Below are positions 2,603 to 28,117 of a DNA stretch of 36,763 nucleotides, piece by piece; the first letter of the stretch is position 1; each line of letters opens with the position of its first letter. Where the stretch lies: positions 1-36,763 of the IMG/VR virus record IMGVR_UViG_3300046314_000201; one strand, written 5' to 3'. Both the position numbers and the translations under genes were made by a program. Under the pieces are notes generated by a model. The model was given only the letters and a program-made list of their open reading frames with translations, ran no database searches and was not told the DNA's origin. Source of the stretch: a virus.

Positions 2603-3139
2603 ATGCCAGAAATTCAAATACCAGAATCAAACTTCGGTTCATTGGACGTAATCGGTATCATTACTGACATTACCAACTTGGAAAATCAACTTGATGGAGG
2701 TTGGGTTCCATCGGTCAATCAACTTCCCGGATACCATGTCAATTCACCTTGGAAAATTGCCGGTTGGGAATCATTTGAAGTGAATCCAACAACCCCACTG
2801 CGTGTTAATGCGGGAACAACAACGATATTCTATACGTTCCCAGACGAGGCGACATTCTTGGCCGAATTGGAAACTGCTGATGTTACGGCTCCTGCTGTAG
2901 TCCCCAAGGTGGTCACCATGCGTCAAGCACGCTTGGCTCTGCTTGACGCTGGTTTGCTTGGTAGTATAAATACAGCTATTGATGCACTACCAACCCCGAT
3001 TAAGGAAGCTGCTCAGATCGAGTGGGAATACAGTCAAGAAGTTCAACGACACAATGGGTTCGTCAGTCAACTGGCACCAATTTTGGGACTGACTGAAGCA
3101 CAATTGGATGGATTGTTTGTTATTGCAAGCGGTCTGTAA
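2603..3139 (+). CDS. Fibre-cluster protein with C-terminal phage helical domain
   Basis: A 178-aa protein. The N-terminal half (residues about 1-100) is beta-like with Trp and Pro and is not recognised. The C-terminal 75 residues read VTMRQARLALLDAGLL, then PIKEAAQIEWEYSQEV, then LGLTEAQLDGLFVIA. This is a helical module found at the C terminus of many small proteins encoded next to phage fibre genes. Its function is unknown, though it often accompanies fibre assembly proteins. The preceding ribosome binding region is GAAAGAAC, the same type as before the 410 gene. A tail-fibre assembly or attachment role is likely from context. Confidence 0.6.
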   Translation: MPEIQIPESNFGSLDVIGIITDITNLENQLDGGWVPSVNQLPGYHVNSPWKIAGWESFEVNPTTPLRVNAGTTTIFYTFPDEATFLAELETADVTAPAVVPKVVTMRQARLALLDAGLLGSINTAIDALPTPIKEAAQIEWEYSQEVQRHNGFVSQLAPILGLTEAQLDGLFVIASGL

Positions 3140-3161: not shown

Positions 3162-3227
3162 ATGTCTATTACGAAAATAAACAACAAAAGTCTTGATGTT
3201 CTTTCCATAATGGTATGTTCCGCATGA
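3162..3227 (+). CDS. Possible 21-aa leader ORF
   Basis: ATG at 3162 has a good ribosome binding site (AAGGAA about 9 bp upstream) and encodes 21 residues (MSITKINNKSLDVLS then IMVCSA). Its TGA overlaps the ATG at 3224 of the peptidase gene as ATGA. The peptidase itself has no clear Shine-Dalgarno, so ribosomes may reach it by termination-reinitiation from this ORF. The alternative is that this is the displaced N terminus of the peptidase after a frameshift, or the remnant of a longer protein. Confidence 0.4.
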   Translation: MSITKINNKSLDVLSIMVCSA

Positions 3228-4144
3228 AAAGCGTCGATCTACGATCTAATATCAACACTGTCTACAACCAAGCTGCAAACAATGCTTGCATGCCTCATGC
3301 TTTAGTTAATGCATTGGATGCTATGTATGACCATGCTGATAAATCTAGGCGATTCAGCAGGTCGCATTTATGGCATTGGGGTCGGCATTGGATGGGTACT
3401 TCTGGTGTAAACGCTGGTGTCAGTATTGAAGCAGCAATCAAGACTGTATCTACTAACGGTATTATGACCGAAGCTGACTGCCCTTGGGAAAAGACTTCTG
3501 GGTTTATTCCACAAGGTGAAGCTGGGTTTACGTTAGTACGAACTCAGATAGATACAGACATGGTTAGTAGCATTAAACGATTGCTATGCATGGGTGTCCC
3601 TGTCGTATGGATTATGCGTGTCACACCCATGTTTTCTGCAATGGCATTCTATCATAACTGGAAAAACTCAGAACCTATTCCACCTGATGTAAGTCAAGTA
3701 ATGGGTGAGCATGTAGTATGTATCGTTGGTTACGATGATACCTGCAAAAGATTCCTAATTGAAAACAGCTACGGTAAAGATTGGGGTGATGGCGGATTCT
3801 TTGGATTACCTTATGCTTCATTACCTGCATTAACCGAAGGGTTCTTGCATTTTGACTTTGCTCCTATTACTCCAAGACCAGTAGAAGGCTATATTGTGAC
3901 AACACCAAAACCAAGTCTAATTGAACGATCTGAATTTTTTGATGCAAGTAAAACTGCTTTGCGTCAGATTCTGATTGAAGCATTTACCAGAAACCCTCAA
4001 GATTTTATTGATACGTGCAAAACATGGGGAGTTTCTGATAAGCACGTTGAATATCTTGCTGAATGGCCGAGAGGTACTGTAAGAAACTACAAATCGCTTA
4101 ACCTTCAACTTAATTGGGATGGTTTTATTTGGAATCAACTTTAA
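3224..4144 (+). CDS. Papain-family (C1) cysteine peptidase
   Basis: The product is 306 aa from ATG 3224, or 309 aa from ATG 3215. Numbered from 3215, the papain-fold hallmarks are in order. DLRSNINTVYNQ places the oxyanion Gln at 19. NNACMPHALVNAL places the catalytic Cys at 25, the same Q-to-C spacing as papain. GEHVVCIVGYDD gives His166, and LIENSYGKDWGDGGFFGLP gives Asn184 with the typical Trp/Gly context. The catalytic core ends near residue 225 and the last 85 residues form an unrecognised helical tail. There is no signal peptide. A cysteine peptidase among fibre genes is unusual. It might trim fibre proteins or act on host surface or intracellular proteins. The family call is strong, the substrate unknown. 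Confidence 0.8.
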   Translation: MKSVDLRSNINTVYNQAANNACMPHALVNALDAMYDHADKSRRFSRSHLWHWGRHWMGTSGVNAGVSIEAAIKTVSTNGIMTEADCPWEKTSGFIPQGEAGFTLVRTQIDTDMVSSIKRLLCMGVPVVWIMRVTPMFSAMAFYHNWKNSEPIPPDVSQVMGEHVVCIVGYDDTCKRFLIENSYGKDWGDGGFFGLPYASLPALTEGFLHFDFAPITPRPVEGYIVTTPKPSLIERSEFFDASKTALRQILIEAFTRNPQDFIDTCKTWGVSDKHVEYLAEWPRGTVRNYKSLNLQLNWDGFIWNQL

Positions 4145-4184
4145 TGAAACAACATCGGTTTTGCTATGCCGAATGGAAATTCTA

Positions 4185-4219: not shown

Positions 4220-6049
4220 ATGGCATATCAAGGCACTTCGCCTCAAATTGGGACACACAAGAAACTGGACAATCTGACATTTAATGGAGCGACAACTTCA
4301 TTCGTTTTGTCTTCGTCCGGTTCTCCCGTATTTCCTGCAATTGCAGAGGCATTAATCATTTCATTGAACGGTGTTATCCAAGAACCGAATGGTAGCTTTA
4401 CTGTATCTGGTTCCAATATCACTTTCAGTGCAGCACCAGCAATCGGAACATCATTCTTTGGTGTTCTGTTGGGAGAAAAGGTTCTTTTGGCTGATGTGTT
4501 GGCTGCTTCTGGCGGCACAATGACAGGTCTTCTGACTCTATCGGCAAATCCAACCGCTGCGTTAGGTGCTGCAACCAAGCAGTATGTAGATGCTGGAGTT
4601 TCATCTGTTTCGACTGCAAAGCAAGATGTTTTGGTTTCTGGAACAAACATCAAAACCGTCAATGGTGCTTCTGTTCTTGGAAGTGGAGACATTACCATCG
4701 CTCAAGGATATGATTCGTCGGATTTGATTATTGACGGAGAAGCATATTTGAATGTAGCTGTTGGTGGGACAGCTTCCGAGATTAAGACTGTTGTGAACAT
4801 TGATGCGAATAGAGAAGCCTTGATATTTTCTACGACATCGAATTCTATTGAATCACTCTATATCGTCGTTTATAATAAGACCACGAAAAATTTTGGAACA
4901 GTTACACTTTTAGGGACAGGTAGTGTTGGTACAGTTTTTTATGTTCAAGCTGGTTTGATCTCTACCGATAAACTGCTATTGTGTTCATCAAATTCACAGA
5001 CTACATTTTCATCAACTGTTATTAGTTTTACTGGTTCCAGCATATCTGTCGGTACTCCAGTATTGACTCCCGGGGATGGCACAGCAACATTGCTTAGTCT
5101 ACAAGCCCCTCTGATTGTAGGTTCGGCAATGGTAATTAAGTATGCCGGTACCACAGGAGTTCCTTATATAAGAGCGATTACAGTTACGGGAACAGTTCCT
5201 TCAGTCGGTTCGGCTTTGTCTCTGGCATATGATCGTGGACGAGACTGCCCAATGACGGTTACTTCTGAAGGTAAAATTTTAGCAGTTTCTGGGGATTCTG
5301 CTGGTAGCGCCGGGGTATTTTTGATAGAATTGTCTGGAAATACTTTATCAACTTTGAATGGTTCGTTTCAAAATAGTGGTTCATCGTTTACCACTACATA
5401 TGATTCAGTTCGGCTACAACAACTGTCAACCGGAAAATACATTTTTATCTGGTCTGACACGAATGGCGATATTAAATGTGAGTTGATTGATGCGACAGTA
5501 GCCGGATTTTCCGCGTCATCTATAGTTTCAATATCTGGTTTCCAGAACGCTGCTGTTATCACAACGCTTGTTGTATCAAATCAAATTATTATACGTGCTT
5601 CCGGTAGAGTTACTGTAATCACTGACAACAATTCTGGAACCCCCATTGTCGGCACCTCGATACCGACTGGAGAATCTGAAACATCAAGTCCTGCGTATAA
5701 CCTCGGATATACTACATCAGAGATGATTATATCGCCAAATGGGTCGTACATTTCCGTTGGTATTTCAGGAAACAATCCATATGTATCATACTCCGATATG
5801 ACCACCAAGATGGTGCCGATTGGTCTTAAATTTCTAAGAACATCTACGGCTAAACACGTGTCTCCTCCTAGAGTTGATAGTCCATACATATACGTTGTGA
5901 CATCGGGGACTAAAGCCAAGCAGACGTTGGGTGGATTTGGACTATACGCCTCTTCTTATTATATTCTCCCAAATGAATCTGAAGCATGGAGTTCCGTTCA
6001 TGTCCAATCATCAAATAAAGTATTTTTAAGAAAGATTAAAGCAGTATGA
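4220..6049 (+). CDS. Tail fibre protein
   Basis: A 609-aa protein starting MAYQGTSPQIG. The N-terminal part (residues about 1-90, LDNLTFNGATTSFVLSSSG ... ALIISLNGVIQEPNGSFTV) is a module widespread at the start of fibre proteins of environmental T4-like phages. It is followed by LADVLAASGGTMTGLLTLS and ATKQYVDAGVSSVSTAKQD, a coiled-coil/trimerisation-type linker typical of fibres. The C-terminal 430 residues are Ser/Thr/Gly-rich, beta-structured, and probably carry the receptor-binding surface, with periodic blade-like strands (for example GKILAVSGDSAGSAGVFLIEL). Its stop overlaps the next gene by 4 bp (ATGA). It is probably a receptor-binding fibre. Confidence 0.75.
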   Translation: MAYQGTSPQIGTHKKLDNLTFNGATTSFVLSSSGSPVFPAIAEALIISLNGVIQEPNGSFTVSGSNITFSAAPAIGTSFFGVLLGEKVLLADVLAASGGTMTGLLTLSANPTAALGAATKQYVDAGVSSVSTAKQDVLVSGTNIKTVNGASVLGSGDITIAQGYDSSDLIIDGEAYLNVAVGGTASEIKTVVNIDANREALIFSTTSNSIESLYIVVYNKTTKNFGTVTLLGTGSVGTVFYVQAGLISTDKLLLCSSNSQTTFSSTVISFTGSSISVGTPVLTPGDGTATLLSLQAPLIVGSAMVIKYAGTTGVPYIRAITVTGTVPSVGSALSLAYDRGRDCPMTVTSEGKILAVSGDSAGSAGVFLIELSGNTLSTLNGSFQNSGSSFTTTYDSVRLQQLSTGKYIFIWSDTNGDIKCELIDATVAGFSASSIVSISGFQNAAVITTLVVSNQIIIRASGRVTVITDNNSGTPIVGTSIPTGESETSSPAYNLGYTTSEMIISPNGSYISVGISGNNPYVSYSDMTTKMVPIGLKFLRTSTAKHVSPPRVDSPYIYVVTSGTKAKQTLGGFGLYASSYYILPNESEAWSSVHVQSSNKVFLRKIKAV

Positions 6050-6489
6050 AACAAATCTTAACACCTTCATTTAAGTTTGGTCCATATCACGTCATAGAAA
6101 CCCTTGAAGATTGCTATATGTGTGACGGTGCTATATTGCCGTTTACTGTAGTCGGTACAGGTGAGGTGATGGAATGGGACGGTGTAATTGAACAACCACC
6201 AGTTCAACCCGTCGTTGAAAAACGACACATCACTCAATTGGCGTTCATTAACAGGTTTACTGATGCCGAAGCTATTGCAATTGACTTGGCTTCTCAAGGG
6301 ACAACTGTTCAGGCGGCAGCAATGCGTCGATACCAAGCAAAGGTAAATGCTGCGACCTATATTGACCTTGACAGACAAGACACGAGAGATGGTGTTATTG
6401 CTCTTGAGGCTCTCGGTTTGCTTGGAACAGGACGGGCTCTGAGCATCTTGGATGATCCGATTTTGTTTGATGAACAATCAGCTAAATAA
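6046..6489 (+). CDS. Fibre-linked protein, possible assembly factor
   Basis: A 147-aa protein translationally coupled to the upstream fibre gene through an ATGA overlap. Residues 1-60 are beta-like (MKQILTPSFKFGPYHVIE), followed by a Pro-rich hinge (EQPPVQPVVEK). A helical C-terminal domain follows: ITQLAFINRFTDAEAIAI, then AAAMRRYQAKVNAATYI, then GVIALEALGLLG. This C-terminal helical domain recurs in small proteins directly after phage fibre genes. A fibre chaperone or tip-attachment role is plausible. It is the last gene before a strong terminator. Confidence 0.6.
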   Translation: MKQILTPSFKFGPYHVIETLEDCYMCDGAILPFTVVGTGEVMEWDGVIEQPPVQPVVEKRHITQLAFINRFTDAEAIAIDLASQGTTVQAAAMRRYQAKVNAATYIDLDRQDTRDGVIALEALGLLGTGRALSILDDPILFDEQSAK

Positions 6490-22388: not shown

Positions 22389-22667
22389 ATGGCGAATACA
22401 ATCTTATCGAAACGATCAGGAGTGGCTGGTGCTGCTCCTAACTCTCTTCAGTATGGCGAAGTTGCGATTAACTACGCAGATGGTAAGATGTTCTACAAAG
22501 ACACTGGAAATACCATCCGTGTTGTTGGATATAACTGGAACGTGGCTTCGGCAACAAAATTGGCAACAGCAAGAACCATCAACGGCGTTGCTTTTGATGG
22601 AACCCAAGACATAACAATACCCAGCGACACATCTGATGCGCTGGCTTTAGCGATTGCGCTCGGATGA
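22389..22667 (+). CDS. Small chimeric fibre protein
   Basis: A 92-aa protein. Residues 1-45 (MANTILSKRSGVAGAAPNSLQYGEVAINY) parallel the start of the 481-aa fibre. Residues about 55-77 (ATKLATARTINGVAFDGTQDI) parallel the 95-aa protein. The end (ALALAIALG) parallels the 60-aa protein. It therefore looks like a fused short copy of the modules encoded just upstream. It ends in an ATGA overlap with the 2H phosphoesterase gene. It may be a fibre adaptor, or a duplicate left by module shuffling. Confidence 0.65.
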   Translation: MANTILSKRSGVAGAAPNSLQYGEVAINYADGKMFYKDTGNTIRVVGYNWNVASATKLATARTINGVAFDGTQDITIPSDTSDALALAIALG

Positions 22668-23170
22668 ACATATTTCTCAATTACCTCAAAGAAGCAACTG
22701 ACACCAAGAAAGGAAACTACGTTTCTATTGGTGTTTCTTCCATGCCTAAAATTGAAATTGAACCAAAAACAGGAAAGATTTCAAAAGAGTTTCACGTAAC
22801 ATTGATGTATTCAAAAGAATCGACTCGAAACCCAAATACCATCAAGAGAAATGTTGAAAAGAAGTTTCCGAACAAAATCGAAACAAAAATCTCACATGCG
22901 TCTGGATTTGATTCAGAAGAAGATGGAGTGACGTGTATCGTTTTGGAGTTGGAAGATTCGGGATTGAGTAAAATCCACGAATACCTCAAGATGGAAGGGT
23001 TGAAACACTCGTACAATGATTTCAAACCACATCTAACCTTGTTCTATGATGTGAATACCGATGAAGCAAAATCTCTTATTGAGAAATTGAATGCTTCTGA
23101 TGTTATCGGAAAGCCTGTTGTTTTGTCTGGTTTTGATTCAACTACTGTCAAAGAGGACTGGAACGAATGA
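22664..23170 (+). CDS. 2H phosphoesterase, Acb1-like anti-CBASS candidate, with possible head-targeting leader
   Basis: A 168-aa protein with the two signature H-x-T motifs of the 2H phosphoesterase superfamily: His44-Val-Thr46 (KEFHVTLMYS) and His123-Leu-Thr125 (KPHLTLFYDV), each on a predicted strand. T4 Acb1 (57B, about 152 aa), which cleaves CBASS cyclic oligonucleotide signals, has the same architecture, with the first motif at the same position as I recall. RNA 2',3'-cyclic phosphodiesterase or ligase-like activity is the alternative. The N terminus MNIFLNYLKE|A looks like the ten-residue capsid-targeting sequence of T4 internal proteins and has an L-x-E|A site for the gp21 protease. 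The gene is coupled to the fibre gene upstream by ATGA. The superfamily call is strong; the substrate is inferred. Confidence 0.75.
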   Translation: MNIFLNYLKEATDTKKGNYVSIGVSSMPKIEIEPKTGKISKEFHVTLMYSKESTRNPNTIKRNVEKKFPNKIETKISHASGFDSEEDGVTCIVLELEDSGLSKIHEYLKMEGLKHSYNDFKPHLTLFYDVNTDEAKSLIEKLNASDVIGKPVVLSGFDSTTVKEDWNE

Positions 23171-23586
23171 TGAAAATAGCTCTATACAAAGGCCCACCTT
23201 CAATCAACAAAGATTTTGTCCATTGGATTTCTCATTGGGCAATTTGTGCCAGATCGTTTAGCAAATACTCTCATGTTGAATTGGTTATTGATGGACAATG
23301 CTACTCAAGTTCTTCCCGTGATGGTGGAGTTCGTTCAAAAATAATTGACTTGAATTCCGGCAAATGGGATGTGGTTGATGTTGAAGGGGACGAACAGTTT
23401 GCATTGGCTTATATGATTGAGCGACTCGGAAACAGTTACGATTGGTGGGGAATCGTTCGATTCATCATCCCATTTGTCCCACAAAAGAACGGTCAAGAAT
23501 TTTGCTCAGAGATTGTTGCTGGTGCATTGGGAGCAGAATGTCCCGAAGATTATTTTCCGGCTGATTGTATTCGTTTTGCTAAGTAA
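23167..23586 (+). CDS. Permuted NlpC/P60-like (YiiX-type) papain-fold protein
   Basis: A 139-aa protein; the start ATGATG overlaps the 2H gene stop. His36 in KYSHVELVIDGQCYSSS and Cys113 in QEFCSEIVAGALG give the reversed order (His before Cys) typical of circularly permuted NlpC/P60 proteins such as YiiX/YebB. The segment SYDWWGIVRFIIPF between them is also typical of the family. Members hydrolyse amide or thioester bonds in peptidoglycan, lipids or proteins. No signal peptide is present. It could be a cell-wall or lipid amidase used in entry or lysis, or an intracellular effector. It lies between the 2H phosphoesterase and the 637-aa protein. Confidence 0.7.
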   Translation: MMKIALYKGPPSINKDFVHWISHWAICARSFSKYSHVELVIDGQCYSSSSRDGGVRSKIIDLNSGKWDVVDVEGDEQFALAYMIERLGNSYDWWGIVRFIIPFVPQKNGQEFCSEIVAGALGAECPEDYFPADCIRFAK

Positions 23587-23610: not shown

Positions 23611-25524
23611 ATGGAAGAAGATTTTAGTCCAGAATTTATTGCCGAATCAATTGAACTTTTGTCCGAAGCATTGACTGACGAACAAAAGAAAAAAGTTGAC
23701 AGTTGGTATCAGTATGGTAATCCGCACAAAGAAGTCTTTGGAGACACTGACCGAATTCGCATCCCATATGATGACTCTAAAGATGAACCGATTACTCGGT
23801 CCGGTCAAACTGGTCGTTGGGATGCACATCACAATATCGTCTTAAATGCTCTTTCTGACCGTGGATATAAGACCGACGATTATGTATCGGGAACAGCATA
23901 TCACGAATCCGATCCGAAGCGGAAATATCGCATTGGTTCTCTGTTGACTGGAGAACATGATAAATGGACAAGAAAACTGACAATGACTGGAGCCAATAAA
24001 GGTAAGCCAATGTCTTTGTCTCAAGTGTATGCTGCTGACCCAGTTCGCGGTGCAGCCAAGACTCCAAAAGAAATTGTTATCAGCAAAAACAAATATGATG
24101 TTGCTGGTGTATCAACTGACCGTGGTTGGTCATCTTGTATGGATATGGATGGTGGAAGTAATAAACACTATCTCCCAAAAGATATTGCAAATCACACACT
24201 TGCTGCATATTTGGTCAAAAAGGGAGAAGACCCTGACAAAAATCCTCTTGGTCGAATAAGCATCAAACAATTCTATAACGAAGGTCACAAAATTTGGAGA
24301 CCTGAAAATGGAGTGTATGGGGCTGCTCCAAGGGGATTCCATTCACAAGTTAGTTCATGGGCAGATGAAAAGTATCCCTCCAAAGAAGGATTTTATCAAA
24401 AAAACCCAGAACTCTACAATGATGATGGGAAAAATCTGTTGATGGAAAAATCACACAGTGATTCCGAAAAGATGCATAGAGATATTGAATCTGCTGTATA
24501 TCATGCAGTAAAGGCTGCTCGAAACACACACGACAATTGGGAATGGGACAAACATCCCGATGGGCCTGATGATGATGGAGATGGAATCCAACAAAAGATT
24601 GCCGACATCCATGACAAAATTTCAGAAAAGGATAAGGTTCATTCAATTGTACATCATTTGATTAAGAATGCCGATGAAGACTTGGATTATCGAGACATCC
24701 ACGACAATAATGTCGAGGATAAGATGTTGCACAGTTACGCTGCAGAGAATGCAGATAAGATGTTTGGTCGAAGGAAAAGTCCGTTCAAGGATTTTGGCCC
24801 CGGCGAGTCAATTGAACTCCTTGGAAAGCTGCACAATGAAGCCAAGGACTATCAAGGAGCCGACTATGAGTCCAAAACAAGATCATTGATGGGAGATGCT
24901 CATCACGACTTGATTGACCATGTTTTGTCACATACCGGCAAATCAAAAGAATGGGATGCTGCTGGTGATGTTGCTCTTGGACACATTGCAACACCAAGCC
25001 ACGAAGACTATTATAGCGACTTGAATCCCGGACAGTCTCGGTATCTGTTGAACCACACCAAAAATCCGCGATTGATGCATACGATTCTCAATAACAATGA
25101 GGACGAGCGAGACTCCACTTTCCAATCACATCCAGTCATGGAACATATGGGAAAATATGCCGATGCAAAGTTGGCCCATGAAGTCTATCATCACCCAGAC
25201 TTGGGATATGGTCACGCAGCAAGTTTGATAAATGGAACCAATGAAAACAAAAATGGCGAAGCAATTCAACACGAATTGACTTCACAAATGCTATTGACTG
25301 GTGGGCATGACAACGAAGGAAATGATTTGTCTGATAGTCATGTTCAACTGCATATGCATGTTGCCAAACTGACCAAGTTCAAATCTGTCTATGACAAAAT
25401 CAAGGCTCGATCTACATCAGACCTCGATCACCCAGACGTTCATGCTGGTCTGAAGGCAAATCATAACTTCCATGTTGCTGAACAGACAGACATGGAACGC
25501 TATCTGAGGGCGTTTAAGAAATGA
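23611..25524 (+). CDS. 637-aa phage protein of unknown function, possible internal head protein
   Basis: The N terminus has SPEFIAE|S (residue 12) and LLSE|A (residue 19), fitting the (L/I)-x-E cleavage rule of T4 gp21. The first resembles the T4 internal-protein leader ending FIAE. Residues about 165-240 (DRGWSSCMDMDGGSNKHYLPKDI, then LAAYLVKKGED, then NPLGRISIKQF) form a pattern I have seen in large-phage proteins of unknown role. The middle is charged and helical (residues 290-400). The last 250 residues have short helical units such as LLNHTKNPRLMHTILNN and HPDLGYGHAASLING, resembling HEAT-like or leucine-rich-variant repeats. It is notably His- and Asp-rich. No signal peptide or membrane segment is seen. 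The gene ends in an ATGA overlap with a membrane protein gene. Confidence 0.55.
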   Translation: MEEDFSPEFIAESIELLSEALTDEQKKKVDSWYQYGNPHKEVFGDTDRIRIPYDDSKDEPITRSGQTGRWDAHHNIVLNALSDRGYKTDDYVSGTAYHESDPKRKYRIGSLLTGEHDKWTRKLTMTGANKGKPMSLSQVYAADPVRGAAKTPKEIVISKNKYDVAGVSTDRGWSSCMDMDGGSNKHYLPKDIANHTLAAYLVKKGEDPDKNPLGRISIKQFYNEGHKIWRPENGVYGAAPRGFHSQVSSWADEKYPSKEGFYQKNPELYNDDGKNLLMEKSHSDSEKMHRDIESAVYHAVKAARNTHDNWEWDKHPDGPDDDGDGIQQKIADIHDKISEKDKVHSIVHHLIKNADEDLDYRDIHDNNVEDKMLHSYAAENADKMFGRRKSPFKDFGPGESIELLGKLHNEAKDYQGADYESKTRSLMGDAHHDLIDHVLSHTGKSKEWDAAGDVALGHIATPSHEDYYSDLNPGQSRYLLNHTKNPRLMHTILNNNEDERDSTFQSHPVMEHMGKYADAKLAHEVYHHPDLGYGHAASLINGTNENKNGEAIQHELTSQMLLTGGHDNEGNDLSDSHVQLHMHVAKLTKFKSVYDKIKARSTSDLDHPDVHAGLKANHNFHVAEQTDMERYLRAFKK

Positions 25525-26497: not shown

Positions 26498-28117
26498 TCA
26501 AAGCATTGGGAAATCTGCCCAAGAGTCAGTTGCTTCAATATATGGCTTATCTGGAGTCAATTGAACAAACGACTCTCCACGATCAACGAACCCAATCGGC
26601 TCCATCCAGTCGTCCCATTCTTTCTTTTGGTTTTGCAGATAAACCGTTCTTAGGTTGTAATCAAACAACTCTTTGAATATAGGTTGTGCTGACAGATAAC
26701 CAAACATCACCAGACACATCATCAAGTCGTCTGTTTTTCCTTCCTCTGCCTTATAGCTATTTCCAACCCTCACAAAAGTTGACATCTCATCAACAATGGT
26801 TGGGTCATTGATTTCAATGGCTTTGTTCTCAACCAATGTCTTTAGGTTTGAACAGCCAATTGATTTTGTCTTTTTGGTCGTTCTCAGTCCGGGAATCTTT
26901 TTACCAGCACCCTCATTGATCTTCTCTCTAAAAGACAAGTATACATTCTCGTACTCCAAGTCATAGAACAAAATGTCAGCAACCTGTTGACCAATATCGT
27001 TTGTTTCAACCAAAACAAAGGCTTCATTGTACTTCATCCCAATCCGATAAATCACATCTGGATACATCTGTGGGTCAATTTTGTTGTTGCGAAAAACTGC
27101 CGAAATTTTGTATGGGAGTGATGTTATATCAAGAACAATGAATGCGGAATAGTCAAGTTCTGCGCCTCTTGCAACATCGGTCATGATGACATAGGAATGT
27201 CCGGGGATTGGTTGATGATATTCGGTATACCCATCAAAAATAACTGTCCCAATACCAAGAGGAATTGAGCTTATTGCAGAACCGGAAATTAGACTAAGAC
27301 TACTTCCAAGAAATTCGCACAAAATCTCCTGATTGTATTTTAGGTCACCAAGTTCTCGTAATTGTTCGTCTGCCCATGTTTGTGTTCGATGTGGATGATC
27401 TTGCCATTTCGCAGCTATTGGAATGAATCCATTGATACCAGCTTCTGCTTCTCTCCAGATTTTGTAGTAATGATTCATCCCTTTTGGGGTACTAACGATA
27501 ATCAGCTTTGAAGACTCTGATGATGAAAGTGTTGGGAAAACAGATGCAATGAATTCTTCTGCAAGATTTGGACTCAAGAAAGCAAACTCATCACATAGAC
27601 AAAAGTTTAAACTCTGTCCACGAACAGCCGATGGCGAAGTTGCTGCACAAAATACAGTTGATTCATTCTCAAATTTAAACGAAGTCTTTGACCACTCCTT
27701 GACTCCGCGCTGCATCCATTTTGGGCAATTTTCTACAATGAATTGAGTTCTTCCAAATATTTCCTTTGCTGTCGTTAGCTTGTTTGCAAGTATACAGGCA
27801 GTCTTTTTTTCTTTACTAAAAAGAACCAACCATGCGATATACCCAGCGGCAGATGTTGATTTTCCACTTTGACGAAACCATTTTGAGATGACTCTGGTTG
27901 AAGAGTGAACGGTTCTTACAAATGTTTTTTGATACTCAAACATTTTAAATGGAACGATACCCTTGTCCAAGGATACGATTTTTGCATAATTTTCAATGAA
28001 GTAAATCGGATCGTTCTTACACCGTTCTAACTCATCCAACTGTTCGTCAGTGTACTCAATCTCCTCATGTGCTCTGCGTAAAAATTTATTTCCATTAAAC
28101 CCAATCTTCTCTGCCAT
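26498..28117 (-). CDS. 17: Large terminase subunit gp17 (DNA-packaging ATPase/nuclease)
   Basis: A 539-aa protein (T4 gp17 is 610 aa) on the strand opposite to all other structural genes. ATPase motifs: Walker A-like RQSGKST (about 82-88), Walker B CLCDEFAF (Asp176, Glu177) and coupling motif IVSTPKG (about 207-213). RNase H-like nuclease acidic residues: Asp314 in VIMTDVARGAELDYS, Glu371 in FVLVETNDIGQ, and Asp463/464 in GKTDDLMMCLVMF. It cuts concatemeric DNA and pumps it through the portal encoded at 30821. No small terminase (gp16) gene is visible in the window. Translation starts at the ATG complementary to 28115-28117, with an AGGAG ribosome binding site just upstream. Confidence 0.93.
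   Translation of the reverse strand: MAEKIGFNGNKFLRRAHEEIEYTDEQLDELERCKNDPIYFIENYAKIVSLDKGIVPFKMFEYQKTFVRTVHSSTRVISKWFRQSGKSTSAAGYIAWLVLFSKEKKTACILANKLTTAKEIFGRTQFIVENCPKWMQRGVKEWSKTSFKFENESTVFCAATSPSAVRGQSLNFCLCDEFAFLSPNLAEEFIASVFPTLSSSESSKLIIVSTPKGMNHYYKIWREAEAGINGFIPIAAKWQDHPHRTQTWADEQLRELGDLKYNQEILCEFLGSSLSLISGSAISSIPLGIGTVIFDGYTEYHQPIPGHSYVIMTDVARGAELDYSAFIVLDITSLPYKISAVFRNNKIDPQMYPDVIYRIGMKYNEAFVLVETNDIGQQVADILFYDLEYENVYLSFREKINEGAGKKIPGLRTTKKTKSIGCSNLKTLVENKAIEINDPTIVDEMSTFVRVGNSYKAEEGKTDDLMMCLVMFGYLSAQPIFKELFDYNLRTVYLQNQKKEWDDWMEPIGFVDRGESFVQLTPDKPYIEATDSWADFPML

Follow-up and report, generated by a model that had tools for sequence, protein, structure and literature searches.

A predicted xylellain-type C1A cysteine peptidase between tail-fibre genes of a T4-superfamily myovirus

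What would a papain-like cysteine peptidase do among the tail-fibre genes of a myovirus? The question is raised by an open reading frame at 3215-4144 (+) of the window, by which we mean the whole 36,763-nucleotide stretch of viral DNA analysed here. The window carries the virion cluster of a myovirus of the T4 superfamily, marked by a baseplate wedge protein (phrog_219), tail sheath (phrog_23), portal (phrog_213) and major head protein (phrog_138); its baseplate protein shares about 36% identity with that of the nearest listed isolates, phages of Methylophilales and Pelagibacter. Upstream of the peptidase lie a tail/fibre protein gene at 754-2352 (+; phrog_5939 tail protein, E 2e-95) and, directly adjoining, a small fibre-associated protein gene at 2603-3139 (+; phrog_6034, E 1e-18). 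Downstream, at 4220-6049 (+), is a fibre/structural protein whose first 88 residues match tail fibre family phrog_18673 (E 6e-22), so that the position between fibre genes given by an earlier, sequence-only reading of this DNA holds.

Several other genes of the window deserve mention in their own right. A small fibre-side protein (6046-6489, +) shares 60% identity across 91 aa with L032 4657-5103, two genes upstream of the peptidase of L032, a divergent relative described below. Inside the same virion cluster is an Acb1-type anti-CBASS phosphodiesterase gene (22664-23170, +; PF23474, E 4.7e-13), at the end of which begins a phrog_1128 moron (23167-23586, +). The moron product looks NlpC/P60-like by eye, yet has no Pfam match; its homologue, L032 5108-5644 (26.5% identity, E 2.5e-11), lies directly upstream of the L032 C1 peptidase. 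The 637-aa protein encoded at 23611-25524 (+) has no Pfam or PHROG match, and the terminase large subunit gene (26498-28117, -) lies on the strand opposite to its virion-cluster neighbours.

The peptidase reading frame is uninterrupted (309 aa) and represents a real gene, the start of which required revision. The sequence-only reading had taken the in-frame ATG at 3215 (3215-3223, +), which has no Shine-Dalgarno sequence and is probably not the start. The next candidate, ATG 3224, overlaps the TGA (3225-3227) of a 21-codon open reading frame at 3162-3227 (+; MSITKINNKSLDVLSIMVCSA), itself preceded by a strong Shine-Dalgarno sequence, AAGGAAATTAAGAT. When starts were compared, the peptidases of L003, L008, L009 and L052 proved to begin in the same way, their start codons overlapping the preceding stop as ATGA or GTGA; in L032 the peptidase begins just past the upstream stop, with no overlap. 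Because this overlap recurs in four of the five relatives, ATG 3224 replaces ATG 3215 as the probable true start, giving a protein of 306 aa (3224-4144, +) that opens straight at the mature catalytic domain (MKSVDLRSN). The 21-codon frame, for which our searches found no relatives, is a probable coupling mini-cistron or leftover of an upstream gene.

The product matches Pfam PF00112 (Peptidase_C1) with an E value of 2.5e-11 and 44.5 bits, against a curated cut-off of 20.7, and its best match among PDB sequences is xylellain (3ois; E 6.3e-11), with cathepsins at about 2e-5; the Pfam and xylellain matches lie far beyond chance and bear out the papain-like C1 assignment made earlier. The catalytic set comprises Q16, C22, H163 and N181, the positions given previously as Q19, C25, H166 and N184 in 309-aa numbering, and all four residues are invariant across 27 viral and plasmid C1 domains, the conservation whose absence would have refuted the sequence-only reading. 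An AlphaFold model, built with 20 window and viral sequences (mean pLDDT 85), has a papain-fold catalytic domain in residues 1-215 (3224-3868, +), with pLDDT mostly between 80 and 94. The best fold match of this part is again xylellain (Z 22.4, 2.4 Å over 206 residues, 25% identity). Papain and cathepsins follow closely at Z of about 21, and many C1A structures score between 20.7 and 22.4. Judged by its sequence, with a score above the family cut-off, the Q/C/H/N set and a modelled papain fold, the product is a member of peptidase family C1A (papain).

Residue 1 of the model pairs with residue 58 of 3ois, and the part of xylellain before that residue is missing. The 306-aa protein contains no signal peptide, prodomain or xylellain-type N-terminal plug; the best 19-residue Kyte-Doolittle mean within the first 40 aa is 0.46, consistent with the absence of a hydrophobic N-terminus and of a signal peptide, as first read. 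As one part of the joint explanation developed below, and only as such, we lean towards a catalytically competent enzyme, predicted to be an endopeptidase of E-64-sensitive type.

Beyond the catalytic domain, a four-helix domain occupies 3896-4141 (+), with the core motif WGVSDKH..(E)..W.RG.VR.(F)..W.GF. The C-terminal 82 residues modelled alone gave four helices at pLDDT 90, the domain itself spanning about 75 aa. No match of weight was found in Pfam, PHROG or PDB sequences, and the best Foldseek E values were 8.6 (PDB) and 2.1 (viral). The best VIA match, to histone folds (Z 3.7, 7.8 Å), was treated as noise, and a helix-turn-helix reading found no support.

Among the sequences searched, the helical domain was seen only in one group of peptidases. 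The full architecture of C1 plus C-terminal domain occurs in MW202426 (43% identity), L007/L008, L009/L010 and L052, and in divergent form in L032. In a tree of 27 rows, the window protein and the four core relatives form one clade (support 98/93), which L032 joins weakly (88/64); plasmid C1 matches are distant (25-39%). By these comparisons, the C-terminal helical domain is the defining feature of a small phage clade. Between L008 and L052, dN is 0.15 and dS 1.31, with dN far under dS wherever measurable, and the peptidase is thus under purifying selection.

Clade members come after fibre genes in L003, L008, L009, L052 and L032, and lysis genes, often holin or endolysin, come after the peptidase in L002, L009 and L003. 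Of the more distant C1 genes, those of L024 and L029 also have fibre or lysis genes nearby, and others, such as those of L011 and L033, do not. The carriers are unrelated phages of differing tail types, L003 for instance encoding a phage stabilisation protein, and the fibre proteins adjoining clade members are unrelated between carriers, bar a short shared linker. Direct evidence of movement comes from L002, to which window positions 3996-4153 are 97.5% identical at the nucleotide level, with four differences, all synonymous, in a comparison that spans 48 codons of the gene end only. Homology breaks at 4153/4154, 9 nt past the stop codon and 10 nt into the next gene of L002 (phrog_3342), such that the window retains a scar, ATGAAACAAC (4144-4153, +), which corresponds to the first 10 nt of the next gene, on the lysis side of the L002 peptidase. 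The abrupt end inside the next gene, together with the high identity, indicates recent exchange, and the immediate source of the window copy looks, from its sequence, like another phage.

The earlier suggestion of a host-acquired gene therefore stands in a broad sense only. Acquisition of bacterial xylellain-type C1A genes by tailed phages (Myoviridae, Siphoviridae) is described in a passage of PMC10380794; the immediate source here appears to be a phage. Two pattern-based scans of genome contigs, a method weak for distant kin, found no relatives that could mark a bacterial donor. A search of 45 loci from T4-type relatives turned up no C1 gene or domain; many of these loci are too short to decide and, by an incomplete hand tally, about 18 extend as far upstream as the position of the gene in the window, so that the result is partial evidence of absence.

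Taken together, these observations lead us to favour, at a probability of roughly 55%, a constitutively active xylellain-type C1A endopeptidase that is carried as accessory cargo (a moron) and cuts a host protein, not the phage's own fibres. The gene would be optional cargo inserted where tail-fibre and lysis genes meet in tailed phages and translated late, together with the fibre and lysis genes. The enzyme would fold in the cytoplasm, already active without removal of a prodomain; its C-terminal domain may dock it to a partner, and the peptidase would then cleave a host protein, either as infection ends or during the following adsorption. With adjoining fibres unrelated between carriers, the fibres themselves are unlikely substrates. 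Insertion at a fibre/lysis hot spot could by itself account for the location, with no function in late events.

Two narrower roles are each a tentative possibility. The peptidase may be packaged on the tail through its C-terminal domain and, as the phage adsorbs, digest a host surface protein of the pilus, S-layer or outer membrane. The fibre-side position and the start codon on the upstream stop would suggest this; the extra domain could dock, and carriage on the virion would need no secretion signal. However, the C-terminal domain is unlike any known virion-attachment domain, and neither fibres nor tail types are related among the carriers (which include L003 with its stabilisation protein). 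Literature searches on virion C1 proteases yielded no experimental case. Alternatively, the enzyme might act inside the cell on a host regulator or defence protein, with ubiquitin-like conjugates on phage proteins among the targets, a role for which we would likewise venture only a guarded case. The Acb1 gene indicates that counter-defence genes do occur in this virion cluster, the peptidase is predicted to be cytoplasmic and pre-active, and a C1 domain is found within a phage effector-like protein at L025:4630-7725. This polymorphic-toxin-like virion protein fuses a MuF head protein, a C1 peptidase and an ADP-ribosyltransferase; the fusion recurs in L026 and L027, and MuF-C1 fusions were seen in these three only. 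Against such a role, the gene has no PADLOC match and sits in a late cluster, and Acb1 was not found in ten records with relatives, in a search whose control matched nowhere.

That the enzyme assists lysis, being released or active then against envelope proteins or peptide links beside holin and endolysin, seems unlikely. Lysis genes do come next in L002, L009 and L003, and L004, a distant phage relative annotated as an endolysin, combines C1 with glycoside-hydrolase-like and peptidoglycan-binding domains. Yet the clade has neither a wall-binding domain nor a signal peptide, the window protein has no Pfam match to a cell-wall hydrolase or wall-binding domain, its C-terminal domain being unmatched, and no lysis gene adjoining the peptidase was identified in the window. 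Fibre maturation, proposed in the sequence-only reading and suggested by the position directly between two fibre genes, is improbable, as the gene moves among phages whose fibres belong to unrelated families and the T4-type loci searched, many of them short, yielded no C1 gene. A long shot is that the C-terminal domain recruits the late, mobile protease to tail parts, which it would protect by stripping off ubiquitin-like modifiers attached by the host or by cutting a defence protein; if true, a tail-recruited protease would be a new class of protease-based counter-defence.

Returning to the accessory endopeptidase that we favour, its relatives form a small, testable clade of predicted pre-active papain-type proteases moving among unrelated phages. 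The substrate would reveal what a phage gains from a late cytoplasmic cysteine protease, and the enzyme could serve as a compact protease that is active without prior cleavage of a prodomain.

Among known systems, xylellain of Xylella fastidiosa is the closest solved relative by sequence and fold, and likewise a short bacterial C1A type. The phage protein lacks the part before residue 58, adds the C-terminal helical domain and begins at the catalytic domain, which makes it a variant of the xylellain type, not an orthologue. Two phage proteins carry C1 in other settings: in the Alicyclobacillus phage MMB025 endolysin, C1 is fused to Rv2525c-like glycoside-hydrolase-like and PG_binding_1 domains, as the window peptidase is not, and the three-domain L025 fusion places C1 in a structural gene, in contrast to the stand-alone peptidase here, which is not fused to a MuF head protein. 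Much nearer is the MW202426.1 peptidase UOF76782.1 of a Manatee Spring phage, whose 43% identity runs end to end, C-terminal domain included, and which shares the ATGA overlap and the fibre-lysis junction; its phage has a P22-like stabilisation protein, whereas the window has T4-type head and tail genes. The kind of enzyme is already known in tailed phages, since the passage of PMC10380794 on phage C1A describes horizontally acquired short bacterial xylellain-type enzymes in Caudoviricetes; that passage does not mention a C-terminal domain, a fibre/lysis locus or phage-phage exchange. What the present analysis adds is the C-terminal domain, the fibre/lysis locus and recent exchange between phages.
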